Part shown: one piece after another, positions 3,086 to 10,680 of the stretch | Position numbering within the stretch: position 1 is the first letter of the stretch | Layout of the letters: each line of letters begins with the position of its first letter | Source of the DNA: Emcibacteraceae bacterium | Lineage (GTDB): Bacteria; Pseudomonadota; Alphaproteobacteria; Sphingomonadales; Emcibacteraceae | Length of the DNA: 10,680 nucleotides | Direction: 5' to 3' | Assembly (NCBI GenBank): GCA_016763335.1 | Contig: JAESUD010000061.1 | Coordinates: 1-10,680, forward strand | Program-made: the position numbers and the translations under genes | The notes under the pieces: model-generated | What the model was told of the DNA's origin: nothing | Databases searched by the model: none | The model's input: the letters and a program-made list of their open reading frames with translations, nothing else

Positions 3086-5365
3086 TTGAAAGATACTGAA
3101 AAGTTTACTGCGAATATCGATTTCGAGATTTTTGAAGAAAATCTTAAAGATATTGAAAAATCATTACTAAGTAGGGCCATTGGTAAAACAATTCAGTCAT
3201 TCGTACACAAAAGAACAATTAAATTTACTGAGCGTGATAATGAATTAGACCGTGAAAAAACGCGTGAGGTTTTGGTGGATAATGCAGCAAAGCTCGTTAA
3301 GTTTGAAAGGGCTACAAATAATCCAAGCCTTGGCACCGACAATAATCAAGACAAAACATTATATCATTGGGTCAACAACTTAATTAATGGCTCAGGTGAT
3401 AATAGATTTGGGATCGCCATATATTATTGGTTTCATGTTAAGGAGCCTAACCCTATTTATTCTAAAAAAATAGATGATACTATTTTCGGGACTGGTATTT
3501 CTTATGAAATGAATTATGAGTGCTTAGTAGGTGGAAAAGTATACCCTCTAAAGGAACAAAAAAAATACCAACATTTTTTTAATTCAAAATCTAAAAACTA
3601 TTCCTACCGAGAAGAAAAAAATCAGGATCAAAAAAAAGAACCTGATTCAAAACCTACCTCTTTTAATAAAGCTACGCTGTTAACACATGAAGAAAAAGAG
3701 AAAATAACCTCACAAGTTAAAGATATATGTGAAAGCGGATTGATCAACATTGATTATACCCTGCCAAAATTAGGACATCAACCGACTCCTTTATTAGGTA
3801 ATATGGATATAGATCAAGAATATGTCGACCTTATTTGCGAAGGATTAAATTACGATTTTAAAATCGGTTTAAATAAGGTTGTTTTGGAGTTTAAATCAAA
3901 CGAAATTGTTTTAGAACGTCCGACAAATATTCAAACTACTCACGATCAACAAAATACATATTACTTTTCTAAAAATAAAACAGGAACACATTGGAAGGTT
4001 GCCTTCGAATCTTTTGCACCTGACAACTTTCTTAAAGATAACTTATTACGTTTTTCAAATGGAATTGTTCTTTATGCTAAATTAAATGACAGTGGAAACA
4101 AACCAACAATCACTGCAGCACATATCCTTCATCGAGATCATATTGAAATTAAGGCGATAACCAAGTCTTATGATGACCCTGTCGATTTTGAAAAAGAGAA
4201 ATATATCTATAAGATGATCGAGTGGGCGCTTTTGGAGTTTATAGATACAACATCCGTAGAGTTTAGCCTCGGCTTTGAGGATGAATATATTAAGAAAACT
4301 ATTGTAAATTCTGAAAACAAGATAGAAAAGATCAAAGAATGGGTGGAACGGTTAAGTAGCCTTAGCTCCTCTACATCGTCAAATTTTATTCATTTATTTA
4401 AATTATCTGGATTACCCAACGATATTTTTAAAGGAGAAACTCTGCAAAACTTAGATTTATCAAACTCGGATTTATCCATTTTGGATTTAAGAAACACCCA
4501 GCTTATTGATTGCAATTTAACCAATTCTAATTGGTTGAATTCCGGTGTAAGTGTAAAAGATATTTTAACTACAAGATTAGACCATTCTTATTTTCCGGAT
4601 AATAATTATCACTTCAATAAAGATTTGAAAACAGTTGCTGTTCGTATCGATTCTATATCCGTTACGAAATTTTTCGAGGACTGTCAGAAAGGCAAAATTG
4701 AAGCAGTAAAAAAAATATTAGCAACTGGATTTGATGTTGACAGCGTCTTGGACGGTTCAACAGCTTTGAAAAAATGTTCCCAGAGAATAGGGCAACTATC
4801 AATCATTAAGTTGCTACTGGATGCTAAAGCTGATCCCAATATACCTGATAAAAACGGTCAAACAGCATTGTCTTTTGCTAGTAAGTTTGGCCACCTTGAA
4901 ATTGTACAAATATTACTGAAATTTGGTGCTTTTGTAGATCAAGATGTTACTGGGTTTTGTTATTCCTCCTTACAGGAAGCTGCCAAGAGTAATCATGAAG
5001 AAGTTGTAAAAACATTAATTGGATACGGTGCAGAAATAGATAAAACAAACAAAAATATCAGCGGCGGCACTCCACTCATGGACGCTTGCTCTTTGGGGTA
5101 TAAAAGGATAGCCAAAATCTTGTTAGATGAAGGAGCCGACATAAATATCTGCATTTTGGACCCCTATCCACCGAACGAACGGACACCTTTAATGGCTGCT
5201 TGTGGTTCTAACCCTGATCTTGAAATAGTAAAGATAATAGTAAAAGCTGGAGCTAATATTAATTTTAAAACTCCAACGCTTGGACTTAATGCCCTCAGCC
5301 TAGCAAAAAGTGATGCAAGTGACGAAATTGTTCAATATTTACTAGCGAACGGCGCTAAACCATAA
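3086..5365 (+). CDS. Large protein with novel N-terminus, pentapeptide repeats and ankyrin repeats
   Basis: 759 residues. The start is TTG 3086, fixed by a strong GAGGAAGG at 3071-3078, 7 bases upstream. Residues 1-160 form a region I cannot assign (motif YHWVNNLINGSGDNRFGIAIYYWF, 93-116). A charged low-complexity linker runs 161-195, and a second unassigned domain spans about 200-445. Residues 451-485 are seven pentapeptide steps (LDLSN, SDLSI, LDLRN, TQLID, CNLTN, SNWLN and a preceding ETLQN). From about 526 to the end there are seven ankyrin repeats, with signatures such as GQTALSFASKFGHLEIVQILL (591-611) and GGTPLMDACSLGYKRIAKILL (660-680); the fourth and sixth are irregular. There is no TM segment or signal peptide, so the protein is probably cytoplasmic. 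Ankyrin and pentapeptide arrays are protein-binding or capping scaffolds; the effector role would lie in the N-terminal 445 residues, where I see no catalytic motif. Confidence 0.85.
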   Translation: MKDTEKFTANIDFEIFEENLKDIEKSLLSRAIGKTIQSFVHKRTIKFTERDNELDREKTREVLVDNAAKLVKFERATNNPSLGTDNNQDKTLYHWVNNLINGSGDNRFGIAIYYWFHVKEPNPIYSKKIDDTIFGTGISYEMNYECLVGGKVYPLKEQKKYQHFFNSKSKNYSYREEKNQDQKKEPDSKPTSFNKATLLTHEEKEKITSQVKDICESGLINIDYTLPKLGHQPTPLLGNMDIDQEYVDLICEGLNYDFKIGLNKVVLEFKSNEIVLERPTNIQTTHDQQNTYYFSKNKTGTHWKVAFESFAPDNFLKDNLLRFSNGIVLYAKLNDSGNKPTITAAHILHRDHIEIKAITKSYDDPVDFEKEKYIYKMIEWALLEFIDTTSVEFSLGFEDEYIKKTIVNSENKIEKIKEWVERLSSLSSSTSSNFIHLFKLSGLPNDIFKGETLQNLDLSNSDLSILDLRNTQLIDCNLTNSNWLNSGVSVKDILTTRLDHSYFPDNNYHFNKDLKTVAVRIDSISVTKFFEDCQKGKIEAVKKILATGFDVDSVLDGSTALKKCSQRIGQLSIIKLLLDAKADPNIPDKNGQTALSFASKFGHLEIVQILLKFGAFVDQDVTGFCYSSLQEAAKSNHEEVVKTLIGYGAEIDKTNKNISGGTPLMDACSLGYKRIAKILLDEGADINICILDPYPPNERTPLMAACGSNPDLEIVKIIVKAGANINFKTPTLGLNALSLAKSDASDEIVQYLLANGAKP

Positions 5366-5450: not shown

Positions 5451-5675
5451 GTGCGCTTACGAGAAAACGCCTCCGTCGATTCTGAAATATTGGATGAAAT
5501 GAGGATCGGCCAAGTCGTTACTGTTGTATCTTCGGTAAAGTACTGGACCCAAGTAATGTATGAAAATGAAGAAGGCGAAGTTTGCACAGGATGGGTCTCC
5601 ACTCGGCTTGTGGCTAAGTTTAGGAATAAGTCGAGAGAAAACTTCCACTCAGTCATACAGCCACTTCACATTTAA
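5451..5675 (+). CDS. Short bacterial SH3-domain ORF, probably a truncated remnant
   Basis: 74 codons from GTG 5451, with AAAGGTGA 5 bases upstream. The sequence matches the bacterial SH3 (SH3b) pattern: VRLRENASVDSEILDEM, then IGQVVTVVS, YWTQVMY and GWVSTRLV. Two points suggest truncation. The frame upstream reads FIKGDN directly into VRLR, which is how the first strand of SH3b domains normally begins, and a TGA at 5421 then closes the frame with no start or signal peptide. SH3b domains usually sit on secreted or wall-binding proteins, and none is attached here. The tail RNKSRENFHSVIQPLHI is not SH3-like, and the last 23 bases overlap the 3' end of the convergent recombinase gene. It may be a free-standing small protein, but a fragment left by recombination is more likely. 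Confidence 0.5.
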   Translation: MRLRENASVDSEILDEMRIGQVVTVVSSVKYWTQVMYENEEGEVCTGWVSTRLVAKFRNKSRENFHSVIQPLHI

Positions 5676-6261
5676 GGTCTATATATTTTACTGCAATGCA
5701 GGGGGTGAACTCGGCAATTCTCCGCCGGACCGTTTCCGTACTTGTCTTTAATTGTCCAGCAACAGCCTTAAAACTTCTTCCAGCTTCTATTTGCTCAAGG
5801 GCATAGATAATTTGAGAATTCGTTAATGAACGGGGACGGCCCGGATACTTTCCTTCATCTGCCGCCGCTTCCATTCCCGCTATTGTTCTCTCGCGTATCA
5901 GGCCCAATTCAAATTGCCCAACCGCACCCAAAATCTGAAAAACCAATTCACCGATAAGGGCTGAAGTATCTATATTTTCCGTCAGGGACTCAAAATAAAT
6001 CCCTCTGGCTTTAAGATCATCATTAAACTCAATCAAATGCTTTAAAGACCGTCCTATCCGGTCCAGTTTCCATGTGCTTAAAGTAGCCCCACTGGGAATG
6101 TCTTTTAAAAGCCGGTCAAAATCAGGACGGTGCTTGAGGGAACCTGAAACCCCTTCATCGATATATATTTTATCGCATCCCGCCGCCTCTAAGGCATCGA
6201 CTTGCAAACCTATTGATTGTTCTTTTGTGCTAACGCGAACGTATCCAAATTTGGGGGACAT
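5653..6261 (-). CDS. Serine recombinase, resolvase/invertase family
   Basis: 202 residues, close to the usual 180-200 of small serine recombinases. It catalyses site-specific strand exchange through a 5'-phosphoserine intermediate. The N-terminal catalytic domain (about 4-130) shows GYVRVSTKEQ with nucleophile Ser11 and Arg9, the EGVSG motif (36-40), and KLDRIGRSL with Asp67, Arg68 and Arg71, the same numbering as the active-site residues of gamma-delta resolvase. The helix with FQILGAVGQFELGLIRERTIAGMEAA (108-133) leads into GRPRSL and a C-terminal helix-turn-helix (about 146-184, FKAVAGQLKTSTETVRRRI). All key residues are present, so it looks active. The start has AGGATC just before the ATG. 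The last 18 residues extend beyond the HTH and may be a recent end. The inverted palindromes at 6332-6353 and 6465-6482, immediately upstream, are its likely crossover sites, favouring an invertase role. Confidence 0.92.
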   Translation of the reverse strand: MSPKFGYVRVSTKEQSIGLQVDALEAAGCDKIYIDEGVSGSLKHRPDFDRLLKDIPSGATLSTWKLDRIGRSLKHLIEFNDDLKARGIYFESLTENIDTSALIGELVFQILGAVGQFELGLIRERTIAGMEAAADEGKYPGRPRSLTNSQIIYALEQIEAGRSFKAVAGQLKTSTETVRRRIAEFTPCIAVKYIDLKCEVAV

Positions 6262-6311: not shown

Positions 6312-6332
6312 GGCCCTCACAACACACGGGCC
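6312..6332. other. Short GC hairpin upstream of recombinase
   Basis: GGCCC (6312-6316) and GGGCC (6328-6332) form a 5-bp stem with an 11-base loop. It lies between the recombinase start and the left crossover site. It has no T-run, so it is not a simple terminator. It could be leader structure in recombinase mRNA or an accessory binding element, and chance is possible. Confidence 0.25.
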
Positions 6333-6353
6333 ACAAAAAGGACCCTTTTTGTG
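6332..6353. repeat. Left inverted repeat, candidate recombinase crossover site
   Basis: CACAAAAAGG, AC, CCTTTTTGTG is a perfect 10-bp-arm palindrome around a 2-bp centre. This layout is typical of the ~26-bp hix, gix and cix sites of serine invertases, which have A/T-rich arms with a GG/CC-flanked 2-bp core. Nineteen bases (6334-6352) recur in inverted orientation at 6464-6482. The site lies about 70 bp upstream of the recombinase start codon. Confidence 0.6.
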
Positions 6354-6366
6354 ACGGGTCTTTTTT
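6337..6366. terminator. Terminator-like hairpin overlapping the left repeat
   Basis: GACCC (6341-6345) pairs with GGGTC (6356-6360) across a 10-base loop. A G-T wobble and A-T pairs extend the stem, and six T follow on the plus strand (6361-6366). On the minus strand the same stem is followed by CTTTTT, so it could terminate in both directions. No plus-strand gene ends just before it. It may therefore insulate the recombinase from transcription entering from the right. It overlaps the crossover palindrome and could not form together with that pairing. Confidence 0.45.
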
Positions 6367-6425
6367 GTCCTCTATTTTGCTTCTGCTTCTCCGGCAGAAT
6401 CCAGTTAATTCAATAGGTTAATTAA

Positions 6426-6454
6426 CTTATACGCAACGTATCACAAATTATACT
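6426..6454 (+). promoter_or_regulatory. Possible promoter inside the candidate invertible segment
   Basis: TATACT (6449-6454) is a good -10 (5 of 6), with CTTATA (6426-6431) 17 bases upstream as a weak -35. It would drive the secreted-protein gene at 6554 with a leader of about 90 bases that includes the right repeat. Two small symmetric elements, GTTAATTAAC just upstream and ATACG-CAA-CGTAT overlapping it, could bind a regulator. The call rests mainly on the -10 and position. Confidence 0.35.
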
Positions 6455-6463
6455 GCCATTGCA

Positions 6464-6482
6464 ACAAAAAGGGTCCTTTTTG
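6464..6482. repeat. Right inverted repeat, candidate recombinase crossover site
   Basis: CAAAAAGG, GT, CCTTTTTG (6465-6482) is a palindrome with 8-bp arms. Read on the complement, 6464-6482 is identical over 19 bases to 6334-6352. The core is GT here and AC at the left site, so the two sites are head-to-head in the arrangement that yields inversion rather than deletion. The flanks outside the 19 bases differ. Confidence 0.6.
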
Positions 6483-6553
6483 CGTCTAAAAACAGTAATA
6501 ACGCCAATGGGTTAGATGAGTTGTCCCGAAGGTGAAAAAAACAGGATTTTATG

Positions 6554-7087
6554 ATGTTTAATGACATAAAAAAGAATTTCGCAAGCCGCGCAGCAGCCGT
6601 TTCTATGGGCGCAACGGCTATATTTTCCCCGTTAACCGCCGTTTTTGCCGCCGACTCGGGCGAAGAAGCCGCGCCGCAAGTCGTGCAACAAACACATGAA
6701 ATCGCATCAGTTGAGACAGCATCACACGCACCGATTACAATAAGCGATAGAGCGGGATATAATGCTGCGCGTTGGGCAGAAGAAAATCCCGGAATCGGCG
6801 TAATTGTTGAAATTGGTTATGATACAGAAATCCCAACCGAAGCCATTGTTGATCTTCTTACACAGGATATAATGTCTATTCGAGGTGAAAATGGTGAACA
6901 GGTTGAGACTGTGGAGTTTTTCTTTAAGGAAAGTAAGGTCAATCGAGAAACAGGGGTTGGGTTTGTGTATGGCTCTGGTGGAACACCAAATGTAAATGTT
7001 ATGAAATCCCGACCTCTTGCTAGAGAAACAGCAACAAGTTATCTTTGGCGGCAATCAAAACCAAGCGTTGCTTATCAATACGATTGA
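6554..7087 (+). CDS. Secreted hypothetical protein downstream of the inverted repeats
   Basis: 177 residues from ATG 6554. An ATG at 6551 adds one Met, but AGGA (6543-6546) is better spaced, 7 bases, for 6554. The N-terminus is a signal peptide: a basic stretch (DIKKNFASR), a hydrophobic core (AAAVSMGATAIFSPLTAV) and a cleavage-like AVFA before ADSGEE, near residue 32. The mature part starts with an acidic, Gln/Ala-rich linker. A compact alpha/beta region follows, with GIGVIVEIGYD (about 80-90), VDLLTQDIMSIRG, VETVEFFFKES and GVGFVYGSGGTPNVNV. I do not recognise a family or catalytic motif. The signal peptide indicates periplasmic or extracellular location. The 289-bp region upstream carries the inverted repeats and candidate promoter, so its expression may be phase-variable. 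Its stop codon abuts that of the convergent gene, with no terminator between them. Confidence 0.75.
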   Translation: MFNDIKKNFASRAAAVSMGATAIFSPLTAVFAADSGEEAAPQVVQQTHEIASVETASHAPITISDRAGYNAARWAEENPGIGVIVEIGYDTEIPTEAIVDLLTQDIMSIRGENGEQVETVEFFFKESKVNRETGVGFVYGSGGTPNVNVMKSRPLARETATSYLWRQSKPSVAYQYD

Positions 7088-7930
7088 TTAAGTCATAGAA
7101 AGTGCGTCCAAAGTGCCGCCAGATTGCAGCTCAGGGTCAAACTCATCCGTATTCTGATCAAATTCCTCAATCTGTTCTGGCGTCAAAACACGCTCTAATA
7201 GTATCCTAGAACCCGTACTACTCTGAGAATACTCTTCGATAAGCTCACGTTTCTCTTCATCTGATAAATTCGGGTCATCCAGATTACGTTTTAATTCCTC
7301 AAGTTTTTCCAGATCATATTTTTCTTGTGCCAGCTTGGCCATTTCCCTTACGTCTTGGTCAGGGTGGTTTATATATTCATCCCTAATTTCACCTGTATCA
7401 GGATCAATCATTTTTTTATTCATTGCATCTTCTACACGTGCGCGCCAATCGGGGATTGATTCCCCGTCCTGACGTTCCGGCATTTCATCAGGGTCGAGTA
7501 TTTTCTGTGCCACAATCTCAACCCAAGCATCACCGTAGCGATCCTCAAAAGCTTGTTCCCTATCCGCAATCGAGTTTTCAAGATTAGCAATTCGATTATT
7601 AAGCTGACTTAACAGCGTAATCAGGTTGATTGTGTCGTTGCCCTTATTCTTTTTGGAATTCTTGCCATCGCCTTGCTCTTGTTGCGCTTTGATAACTGTT
7701 GCTGCACCTGTCAGGATCAAACCTTCATTACTCCCCGAAAGCTGCGCCATATCACTCGCATTCTCTGCAATTTGTTTGATTGTCTGTTGAGCCTTTGTAT
7801 ATTCTTCAAAATCATGACCACCGCCAAAAGCATTGCCCAAATGATCTTGGGGCAATGCCTTCGCAGCCGTTATATAATCGGCCTCTGTTTTAATGTTTTG
7901 CTCCGGTCCCTGAACCATATCATTCCCCAT
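7088..7930 (-). CDS. Acidic coiled-coil hypothetical protein
   Basis: 280 residues from ATG 7930. A second in-frame ATG at 7918 has GGGGAA just upstream and could be the real start. The protein is very acidic, has no signal peptide or TM segment, and is not recognised. Residues 15-85 are helical and Ala/Gln rich. A Lys/Asn linker (89-99, DGKNSKKNKGN) leads to a coiled coil (about 100-130, LITLLSQLNNRIANLENSIADREQ written here in part: LLSQLNNRIANLENS). Then come DRYGDAWVEIVAQKILDPDE (130-149) and an Asp/Glu-rich helical region with IPDWRARVEDAM, HPDQDVREMAKLAQEKYDL and LSDEEKRELIEEYSQ. The tail is acidic. It converges on the secreted-protein gene with directly abutting stop codons. Such acidic helical proteins are common in mobile-element cargo; no function can be inferred. 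Confidence 0.75.
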   Translation of the reverse strand: MGNDMVQGPEQNIKTEADYITAAKALPQDHLGNAFGGGHDFEEYTKAQQTIKQIAENASDMAQLSGSNEGLILTGAATVIKAQQEQGDGKNSKKNKGNDTINLITLLSQLNNRIANLENSIADREQAFEDRYGDAWVEIVAQKILDPDEMPERQDGESIPDWRARVEDAMNKKMIDPDTGEIRDEYINHPDQDVREMAKLAQEKYDLEKLEELKRNLDDPNLSDEEKRELIEEYSQSSTGSRILLERVLTPEQIEEFDQNTDEFDPELQSGGTLDALSMT

Positions 7931-8255: not shown

Positions 8256-9059
8256 TTAGTTTTGAAGTATGATTTCAAGCATTTTTTGCTGTCGCTTTGC
8301 TTGCGCCTTATATTCGATCAGCACCCAGCTTAAATGGGCTTCCGATGCTGTTTTTGTAGTTCCCAATATCCAATGGTTTATCATAGTGCCATTAAGTGTT
8401 TTAGGGGAGCTATCTGATTGTTCATACAATTTGTTTGGACTTAAGCCCGTTGCCATTTTTAATTGAATCAGTTCTTCCTTGATTTCATCAGAAATAGAGA
8501 CTTGATCCATTTTATTTGTAGCGCATGAAGGAGATATGACCTTAACTTTTTTAAACTTTTTCGGTCTATCAGGAAATGATTTAATAGCCTTTAGAACAAA
8601 TTCCCATTCATCAATATAAGTTTTTACATTATCACCAGATAACCAGCGGGTTATTTTCAAATTATTGAGGCTATCTAAATATCGCGGACACATTCTTAAT
8701 ATAGCTGCACCTGTTTTTCCGGTTCTTTCAAATTCAGCTTTCAATTCCATCCTCATGGCCTCTGTAATGCTTATTTTAAGGCGAGAGGTTGGCTTGATTG
8801 CAATATTGGAAATGGTTGGCAGTGTATCTAAAAAAGTTACTATTTCCTGCCATATGAATTTTTCTATCTTCTTTGTTTTGCCTGTTTCAATATCCAGAAA
8901 AAATGCAACGGTATATTTTGGTTTTTCCTTTTCTAGAAAGCAGCCATTTAGTTTTGAATAACTCATCCGTGTGCGTCTGATTTCACTGATAAACAACTCA
9001 CGTTCTTTTTGACTGATTTTCAATATTTCCATTGTTGGAAAAGTCGTATAACGCCCCAA
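8256..9059 (-). CDS. 3' fragment of the five-repeat HTH-like gene
   Basis: 267 codons if initiated at TTG 9059, but that codon lies inside a repeat unit and has no ribosome binding site, and ATG 9032 has none either. It is best read as the distal part of the gene starting at 9479. It contains three complete module copies. The first (about 14-81, IRRT ... DIETGKTKK) is divergent. The second (about 97-163) is the clearest, with FERTGKTGAAILRM, ITRWLSGDNVKTYIDEWEFVL. The third (about 188-253) has MATGLSPNKLYEQ and INHWILGTTKTASEAHLSWVL. The common pattern is a helix, RTG, a turn, P..L, I..W(L)SG, and a closing helix with (F/W)VL. Linkers between copies are Lys-rich (RPKKFKKVKV). This resembles Xre-like DNA-binding folds. 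I recall RTGVG...WL.G repeats in alphaproteobacterial proteins, unverified here. Confidence 0.6.
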   Translation of the reverse strand: MGRYTTFPTMEILKISQKERELFISEIRRTRMSYSKLNGCFLEKEKPKYTVAFFLDIETGKTKKIEKFIWQEIVTFLDTLPTISNIAIKPTSRLKISITEAMRMELKAEFERTGKTGAAILRMCPRYLDSLNNLKITRWLSGDNVKTYIDEWEFVLKAIKSFPDRPKKFKKVKVISPSCATNKMDQVSISDEIKEELIQLKMATGLSPNKLYEQSDSSPKTLNGTMINHWILGTTKTASEAHLSWVLIEYKAQAKRQQKMLEIILQN

Positions 9060-9122: not shown

Positions 9123-9479
9123 TTATGCAGAAAGACCTTTAGGCTTATCTGGATGATCCAGAATATATCCAGTAGATTTTATACCAGTTCTGGCGATTTC
9201 CTTTTGCAGAAATATCCATTTTTCCTTCGTAATGGACATTTTACGGTCCCCAAGGGAAGCGTAATAATCCAGAACAAAGTCCAGATCAACTTTTCTAATA
9301 TTCTTTATTTCACCAGAAACCCACCTTAAAAGGTGGGTCTTTTTGAAATGCTCTGGAATGTGCGGCGCAAGATCATAAAATTGTATTGCACGCACTCCTG
9401 TACGTTTAATCTCACGGCGAAGCCGCCCTTGAATTTCCGGTGAATTTTCAATAAATTTATCTCTAGCTGCACCTGTCAT
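9123..9479 (-). CDS. 5' fragment of the five-repeat HTH-like gene
   Basis: 118 codons from ATG 9479, which lacks a clear Shine-Dalgarno. Residues 14-75 are one full module: LRREIKRTGVRAIQFY, IPEHF, HLLRWVSGEIKN and DLDFVLDYYASL. Residues 82-118 are the first half of a second module (KEKWIFLQKEIARTGIKSTG, KPKGLSA) that stops just before the RW(V/L)SG segment. If translated alone it would give one and a half domains, and the half domain would not be expected to fold. The frame continues without shift into the downstream fragment. The module is probably helix-turn-helix, with RTG opening the turn and RW.SG in the following helix, so a DNA-binding regulator is my inference. Confidence 0.6.
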   Translation of the reverse strand: MTGAARDKFIENSPEIQGRLRREIKRTGVRAIQFYDLAPHIPEHFKKTHLLRWVSGEIKNIRKVDLDFVLDYYASLGDRKMSITKEKWIFLQKEIARTGIKSTGYILDHPDKPKGLSA

Positions 9480-10028: not shown

Positions 10029-10680
10029 ATGCAACTTATGGAGTATGATGAGGTAATTGCTTCATTACTGAAAAAGAAGAGGAAACCAAACCTTCTTTTA
10101 GGTAACGGATTTAGTATGGCCTACAGTAGCGAAATATTTTCTTATAATGCGTTGTACGAATTCGTTGAGCAAATTCAAGACCAGAATTTGAGCAAGATAT
10201 TTGATATTGTGAAAACTAAAAATTTCGAACTAATAATGCAGCAACTCGATAATTTTTGCGAATTAATTGAAGTATTCGATCCCAACTCAGACCTGCAAAA
10301 AATTATAGAAGAAGCCAGTGTAAATCTAAAAAAGTCCCTTTTAGAAGCAATCAAAGAATTACATCCCGACCATGTGTTTAAAATATCTGATGACGAATGC
10401 TCTAAATGTGCAGAGTTTCTCAATCCCTATATGGAGAATAATGGAAATATATTTTCAACAAACTATGACATCCTGCTCTATTGGGTATTGATGAGAAGCG
10501 GCCTTGAAAATAGCGATGGCTTTGGAAAAGATAGGCTAGATGATCCTGATGATCGAGAGACTGAAGTTGAATATAGTGATGAGCTTTACTGGGGAAGAAA
10601 CAGAAGCTCACAATGTGTCTTCTACCTTCATGGAGCATTACCTTTATTTGATACAGGAATAGAAGTAATTAAAGAGCAAT
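10029..10680 (+). CDS. DUF4917-like protein with SIR2-type motifs, partial (C-terminus beyond window)
   Basis: 217 codons from ATG 10029 to the window edge with no stop. AAGG (10017-10020) is 8 bases upstream and overlaps the stop of the preceding gene. Three blocks fit a SIR2-like Rossmann fold: NLLLGNGFSMAYSSEIFSY (21-39) for the nucleotide-binding glycine loop, NGNIFSTNYDILLYWVLM (137-154) for the TxNxD element, and VFYLHGALPLF (196-206) for the catalytic-type histidine. This combination, with DGFG (161-164) between, matches what I remember of DUF4917. SIR2-like proteins outside the deacylase family often cleave NAD+ in anti-phage defence; the motifs are consistent with that, but activity is inferred. 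Residues 55-130 are a helical insert. There is no TM segment. Its partner is the small DUF3892-like protein 10 bases upstream. Confidence 0.8.
   Translation, partial: MQLMEYDEVIASLLKKKRKPNLLLGNGFSMAYSSEIFSYNALYEFVEQIQDQNLSKIFDIVKTKNFELIMQQLDNFCELIEVFDPNSDLQKIIEEASVNLKKSLLEAIKELHPDHVFKISDDECSKCAEFLNPYMENNGNIFSTNYDILLYWVLMRSGLENSDGFGKDRLDDPDDRETEVEYSDELYWGRNRSSQCVFYLHGALPLFDTGIEVIKEQ

Follow-up and report, generated by a model that had tools for sequence, protein, structure and literature searches.

A putative serine-recombinase inversion switch beside a secreted-protein gene in an Emcibacteraceae genome

The intergenic DNA between a serine recombinase gene and a divergent gene for a small secreted protein in an Emcibacteraceae bacterium very probably contains a site-specific invertible segment, the 129 bp enclosed between an AC and a GT core, whose reversal would make the expression of the secreted protein phase variable. 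The window, that is, the whole stretch of DNA analysed, is one entire contig of 10,680 bases belonging to a 2.89 Mb draft genome of 371 contigs. The gap between the leftward recombinase gene (5653-6261) and the rightward secreted-protein gene (6551-7087) holds both crossover sites, and it is the comparison with related loci that makes a switch likely. The features used throughout this work are the following.

5653-6261, minus strand: Gin-like serine recombinase of 202 aa with a resolvase/invertase catalytic domain and a C-terminal HTH, assigned from PF00239, PHROG and structure matches.
6330-6355, no strand assigned: recombinase-proximal crossover site, core AC at 6342-6343 (GT on the recombinase strand), 82 bp before the recombinase start.
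6461-6486, no strand assigned: distal crossover site in inverted orientation, core GT at 6473-6474 (AC on the recombinase strand), recognized by the inverted repeat and the site matrix.
6344-6472, no strand assigned: putative invertible segment of 129 bp between the cores, alignable to loci L093 and L094, with a flipped counterpart in L095/L096.
6408-6439, minus strand: composite motif ACGNNNCGY-N17-TTGAAT reading toward the recombinase, present in seven of eight module loci, with no good -10 box after it.
6426-6454, plus strand: previously proposed promoter candidate CTTATA-17-TATACT toward the secreted protein, at chance level.
6333-6368, plus strand: terminator-like hairpin GGACCC...GGGTC followed by T6, covering the proximal site and the segment end, as judged by folding; weaker on the other strand.
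6551-7087, plus strand: secreted protein of 178 aa with a signal peptide by eye, from an unnamed family of at least 122 homologues.
7088-7930, minus strand: convergent partner protein of 280 aa, weakly similar (11-32% identity) to the partner genes at other module loci.
8256-9059, minus strand: small repeat protein with 'RTG...RW.SG'-like units, HTH-like by eye, with counterparts beside the module in L093, L094, L097, L124 and L125.
9123-9479, minus strand: second protein whose sequence shows, by eye, the same repeat type as 8256-9059.

Two further genes of the window match models of phage-defence collections. The start of a DUF4917 protein (10029-10679; PF16263, 6.8e-28), which runs off the contig end, also matches the PADLOC candidate phage-defence family PDC-S21 (2.3e-68) and, weakly, SIR2 models. 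An ankyrin-repeat protein of 759 aa (3086-5365) also matches the PADLOC models PDC-M72A and Ankyrin.

A preliminary description of this DNA had reported identical 19-bp sequences in inverted order, each a palindrome around a 2-bp core, and this observation was reproduced exactly: the arms (6334-6352 and 6464-6482) are 100% complementary and the AC and GT cores lie 131 bp apart. Taken as 26-bp sites, 6330-6355 is palindromic at 11 of 12 arm positions and 6461-6486 at 9 of 12. When up to three mismatches are allowed, the pattern CAAAAAGGNNCCTTTTTG is matched three times in the window, by the two exact sites and by one place with three mismatches at 10327; 200 dinucleotide shuffles of the window gave a mean of 0.14 matches and not one of them contained three. 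A search of the whole assembly with up to two mismatches returned the two window sites and a single 2-mismatch place on contig C323, so that the window pair represents the only exact copies in the genome. Since a reversed control pattern gives two matches under the same conditions, the third place is at chance level. Shuffles and genome search together indicate that the site pair is not due to chance. The pattern of the site pair was found in one of 396 genomes of the order, which is the genome under study, and had no match in the viral contigs; an Rfam search produced nothing at gathering scores.

The recombinase itself is intact, in agreement with the preliminary description. Its reading frame is complete, the resolvase/invertase domain PF00239 is matched in full with an E value of 2.1e-39, and residues R9, S11, D67, R68 and R71, which we take to be those of the active site, are invariant in an alignment of the window protein with 11 relatives. 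The HTH match stays under the Pfam cut-off (23.5 versus 27.4 bits). The best PHROG family is 'DNA invertase' (1.7e-57), the best solved structures are two DNA invertases (136.6 and 135 bits, versus 80.1 bits for gamma-delta resolvase) and the Mu invertase displays 46% identity over 81% of the protein. These matches place the enzyme closer to the invertases than to the resolvases. Matches at E<=1e-42 occur in 3 of the 385 genomes of the class, own genome counted, and matches at 1e-30 in 52 of the 396 genomes of the order. Many relatives of the recombinase are present in the plasmid and phage collections, all below 60% identity among the matches listed. An alignment of six recombinase sequences used as query retrieved nine distant loci among the genome contigs, the best with 44% identity, and had no match in the viral contigs; the single sequence gave one match in the viral contigs, with 36% identity.

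In order to compare the upstream regions, 64 non-redundant recombinase loci were scanned over 2.5 kb on each side, where present, with a half-site matrix trained on 13 sites, namely those of L004 (the window), L093, L094, L095, L097 and L098 and the proximal site of L099. Two upstream sites were found in nine of the 64 loci, i.e. the six loci that provided both of their sites for training and L096, L048 and L073, and L124 constitutes a tenth; L096, L048, L073 and L124 lie outside the training set. The other 55 loci did not show two upstream sites at the threshold. They include L099 and L100, whose best-scoring distal sites are weak and below threshold (8.0 and 9.9 bits). L103 has one site only. 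No pair reached 15 bits in 600 shuffled upstream regions (60 per locus, ten loci), and the window sites, at 30.0 and 26.4 bits, form the best-matching pair of the set. With L099 and L100 included, the 12 two-site loci belong to ten genomes of the order (two loci each in G035 and G052) and, as the loci are related, this figure is not a count of independent events.

The layout of these 12 loci is conserved, though the core varies. In all 12 the proximal site precedes the recombinase start by 50-82 bp (from -50 to -73 in the 11 besides the window), the distal site follows 126-169 bp further out and the segment spans 124-167 bp. The two cores of a locus are reverse complements of each other in every case, with GT/AC pairs in seven loci, AG/CT in two and AA/TT in three, the last being found in two different families. 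The three core types would need at least two changes, both sites having been altered together each time. The Hin/Gin-type geometry attributed to the window sites is supported by the relatives, which share the two-site layout with covarying cores. An inversion at the cores demands such a complementarity, whereas plain binding sites do not, and in the work on Hin accessible as PMC4513852 core mutations that block pairing make the reaction revert to the parental sequence, matching cores being needed. These observations bear on an alternative in which no inversion takes place and the sites are binding sites for self-repression of the recombinase, or a res-like site for dimer or cointegrate resolution. 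The proximal position is indeed a usual place for self-regulation, and other recombinases of the set, e.g. those of L103 and L059, carry a single site-like palindrome at this position and lack a second one further out. We nevertheless consider this alternative improbable, given the reverse-complementary cores, an enzyme whose sequence is closer to invertases than to Tn3-type resolvases (136.6 versus 80.1 bits) and the behaviour of both sites in relatives, where they act as crossover sites and the segment is found flipped.

The flipped alleles are clearest in loci L095 (genome G192) and L096 (genome G351), which belong to two genera and share a common island with 82-100% identity in 150-base windows from -4991 to +5058, the flipped segment and the interval from -1391 to -342 being left out of this range. 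The 153 bp between their cores are 100% identical only when one copy is reverse-complemented (z 35.0, versus 4.3 in the same orientation). The inner half-sites are swapped between the two loci and the outer half-sites are kept, which places the exchange within the core. On a broader scale, orientation is split 3:2, with L095, L124 and L097 on one side and L096 and L048 on the other, and all ten pairwise comparisons agree. An inversion switch driven by the serine recombinase, as originally suggested, is therefore supported by natural flipped alleles in relatives. The outcome is different in the closest relatives. The window segment aligns in the same orientation to L093 (z 11.3) and L094 (z 5.6), which form one recombinase clade with the window (98), and no flipped allele was found within this clade of three. 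The comparison of relatives put forward in the preliminary description thus gave a flipped state in the wider group and a single orientation next to the window.

This last result could also mean that inversion is real in the relatives and frozen in the lineage of the window, with the segment locked and the sites kept as relics or for regulation. The single orientation of the window, L093 and L094 fits such a history, as does the want of a clear promoter in the window segment described below. We hold it to be unlikely: three genomes are too few to show fixation, and in the window both the enzyme and the sites are intact, the latter being the best-matching pair of all.

The regulatory content of the segment was examined next to its orientation. 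The preliminary description had proposed a promoter directed toward the secreted protein in the window, and this proposal was not supported by scoring. A consensus promoter scan of 6343-6474 found none, the candidate CTTATA-17-TATACT scores no better than shuffles (p 0.28) and no convincing -35/-10 pair was detected in the window segment in either direction; the pairs were scored with frequency tables against 100 simple shuffles each. All five loci of family f6 carry a promoter-like pair of the form TTGAA[T/A]-17-TA[A/G/T]G[A/T]T (TTGAAT or TTGAAA, 17 bases, then TAAGAT, TAGGAT or TATGTT) that turns with the segment, and it is directed toward the secreted-protein gene in L095, L124 and L097 and toward the recombinase in L096 and L048. 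Its shuffle p values range from 0.01 to 0.04 in four loci and reach 0.09 in L097. Rival pairs of nearly equal score are present on the other strand in L095/L096 (TTGTCA-18-TATTGT, 10.0 versus 10.4) and in L097 (9.9 versus 9.8), and at these loci the switched promoter may therefore work in both directions.

A second element, the composite motif ACGNNNCGY-N16/17-TTGA[AT][AT], was searched with spacers of 15-18 allowed. It occurs in seven of the eight module loci introduced below, L097 being the exception, turns with the segment, and appears in 0-2 of 200 shuffles of each of the seven segments that carry it; the four f5 loci lack it. The -35-like box of the promoter-like pair coincides with the TTGAA part of this motif in L095, L096, L048 and L124. 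As the motif was defined after inspection of the loci, it is to be taken as a hint only. In the window it runs from 6439 to 6408, faces the recombinase and lacks a good -10 box. The window may accordingly have been captured in the recombinase-facing state, opposite to the reading of the preliminary description.

The same description had also proposed that a terminator moves with the segment, and here the result is mixed. The sequence 6328-6372 folds on the plus strand with -18.9 kcal/mol (z -3.55), a value equalled by none of 200 shuffles, and on the minus strand with -14.7 kcal/mol (z -1.84), equalled by 12 of 200. A consensus terminator scan reported one weaker hairpin, on the minus strand at 6345-6328 (one found, against a shuffle mean of 1.6), the plus-strand hairpin being missed since its loop is longer than the scan permits. 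A strong hairpin built in part from the crossover site could therefore act as a terminator in the window. A scan of the seven other module loci showed a site-built hairpin in L097, with a clear T-run, and in L124, with an interrupted T-run, and in these two only, and it is thus not a conserved part of the switch. The hairpin lends itself to a wholly different explanation as well, in which the palindromes serve as ordinary terminators or delimit a small non-autonomous insertion element, and the recombinase plays no role. The inclusion of the left palindrome in a strong hairpin with a T-run speaks for it. This explanation is very hard to sustain. Folded singly, neither palindrome is more stable than shuffled sequence (z -0.03 and -0.49 for the right one). 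Ten genomes contain the pair, always in the same position next to a single recombinase family, and no further copy occurs in the genome under study. For the relatives, the flipped alleles with swapped half-sites refute the explanation.

The inversion switch that we favor can be briefly summarized as follows. The Gin-like recombinase (5653-6261) would bind both 26-bp sites as dimers, cut both strands at the 2-bp cores, rotate and rejoin them. The segment would thereby be reversed and the outer half-sites would stay in place. The segment would carry regulatory DNA that serves the secreted-protein gene (6551-7087) in one orientation and the recombinase in the opposite one. The outcome would be a reversible on/off, i.e. 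phase-variable, expression of the secreted protein, with feedback on the recombinase in the other state.

The arrangement resembles the Hin/Gin/Cin/Pin systems in its small serine recombinase and its two 26-bp sites with a short core in inverted order. As in Mu, where the annotated boundary of the G segment lies 67 bp before gin, one site is located just upstream of the recombinase gene (50-82 bp here) and the recombinase is outside the segment. The Hin recombinase gene sits inside its invertible segment. Hin of Salmonella acts on a flagellin promoter. According to PMC3798978, Hin turns a promoter and inverts about 1 kb between 26-bp sites, under the control of an enhancer with two Fis sites. 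The loci described here are like Hin in that a promoter-like pair turns with the segment in relatives, and unlike it in the length of this segment, 124-167 bp against about 1 kb, and in that no Fis protein over the curated cut-off was found in the five genomes tested. The Fis family NF001659 was searched in the genome under study, whose assembly is 90.6% complete, and in four others listed as 100% complete; as a control, it was above the cut-off in one of 14 genomes. The weaker matches sit in frames of 369-930 aa and are probably NtrC-type regulators.

Another serine recombinase, Mpi of Bacteroides fragilis, is described in PMC4747536 as turning promoter segments before surface-structure genes, acting on 13 regions, many of them far away. 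The combination of a serine recombinase and a candidate promoter segment is common to both systems, but the segment found here is a single local one accompanied by its own recombinase, and the NCBIfam Mpi model scores 30.4 bits on the window protein against a cut-off of 272. Short flipped segments also switch surface or motility genes in accounts of fimS of E. coli (314 bp, inverted by FimB, a tyrosine integrase) and of the RecV switches of C. difficile. The RecV enzyme belongs to the FimB type. The short segment is a feature shared with fimS and the RecV switches, the enzyme being a serine recombinase here, unlike FimB.

The switch is part of a recurring module carried by eight loci, i.e. the window, L093, L094, L095, L096, L048 (identical to L125), L097 and L124. 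The parts follow one another as they do in the window, starting with the recombinase and continuing with the invertible segment, the divergent gene for the small secreted protein and the gene for its convergent partner. Small repeat proteins similar to those of the window are added in L093, L094, L097, L124 and L125. The repeat proteins beside the module are built of units around 'RTG...W.sG+.k', and the four that were scanned, including the 8256-9059 protein and the L124 and L125 copies, have no Pfam match. Among the f5 loci, L073, L098 and L099 have a divergent gene that by eye resembles one for a lipoprotein, and L100 shows an extra small gene in between.

The secreted protein has a thioredoxin-like fold by prediction, without cysteine. 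Its family comprises at least 122 homologues at E<=1e-3, and no Pfam domain was found in any of the 120 listed. At E<1e-10 the family is present in seven of the 396 genomes of the order, and the two-site switch accompanies it in all seven; three further matches in genomes of the order have E values from 3.5e-4 to 8.1e-4. A search of the relatives of G192, G151 and G188 and of the genus of G351 (overlapping sets of 98, 89, 88 and 3 genomes) added one more genome, G803, also with a switch. Where it stands beside the switch, the family is probably phase variable. No relative of the L048 secreted protein was found in the plasmid collection, and the L095 DNA matched the plasmid and phage collections over a stretch of about 90 bases only, mostly within recombinase genes. 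The secreted-protein and partner genes probably travel together, as 18 of the 33 homologues of the L125 partner match a listed secreted protein in the length of their longest contig. Between L095 and L096, identity falls to 39-77% from -1391 to -342, which corresponds to the 3' parts of the partner and secreted-protein genes; in this one pair of loci, the two genes appear as a fast-diverging pair compared with their surroundings. The divergence looks like cassette exchange or strong diversifying selection.

An ArdA-like antirestriction protein, a Fic-domain protein and a type IV secretion coupling protein are encoded beside the module in L125 (8084-11595). These genes, together with the large serine recombinase held by L124, point to mobile-element surroundings for at least these two loci. 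All of the above could tentatively be joined into a single picture, which is possible and less than even in our estimation: a self-contained, Fis-free mini-invertase cassette on alphaproteobacterial mobile elements, in which a serine invertase would flip about 125-170 bp, perhaps with the ACGNNNCGY/TTGA motif and the repeat proteins as an accessory system, and would bring about phase variation of the fast-diverging, thioredoxin-like secreted protein together with its convergent partner, the two possibly serving the element in exclusion or competition.

The promoter-inversion systems found in the literature consulted come mostly from enterobacteria, Bacteroides and Clostridioides. The present loci add a compact switch module that recurs within a single alphaproteobacterial order and for which flipped alleles exist in nature; in none of the five genomes tested was a Fis protein recognised. 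They also draw attention to an unnamed secreted-protein family with at least 122 members. With only 124-167 bp to form it, the loop of the segment has to be very tight, and the module offers a small, testable system for a serine invertase working without a Fis enhancer.

Two side observations concern other recombinase loci. Assembly breaks occur in genome G047 near two very similar recombinase genes at contig ends (L101 and L102, on contigs C25 and C26), and 65-aa starts of such a gene are found at the ends of contigs C11 and C23, which are probably duplicated copies in one genome. In Abiotrophia defectiva (L038), two similar palindromic sites with GA and TC cores lie in inverted order 773 bp apart, at about -81 and +691, on both sides of a more distant serine recombinase gene (about 35% identity), which is possibly a self-inverting recombinase gene.
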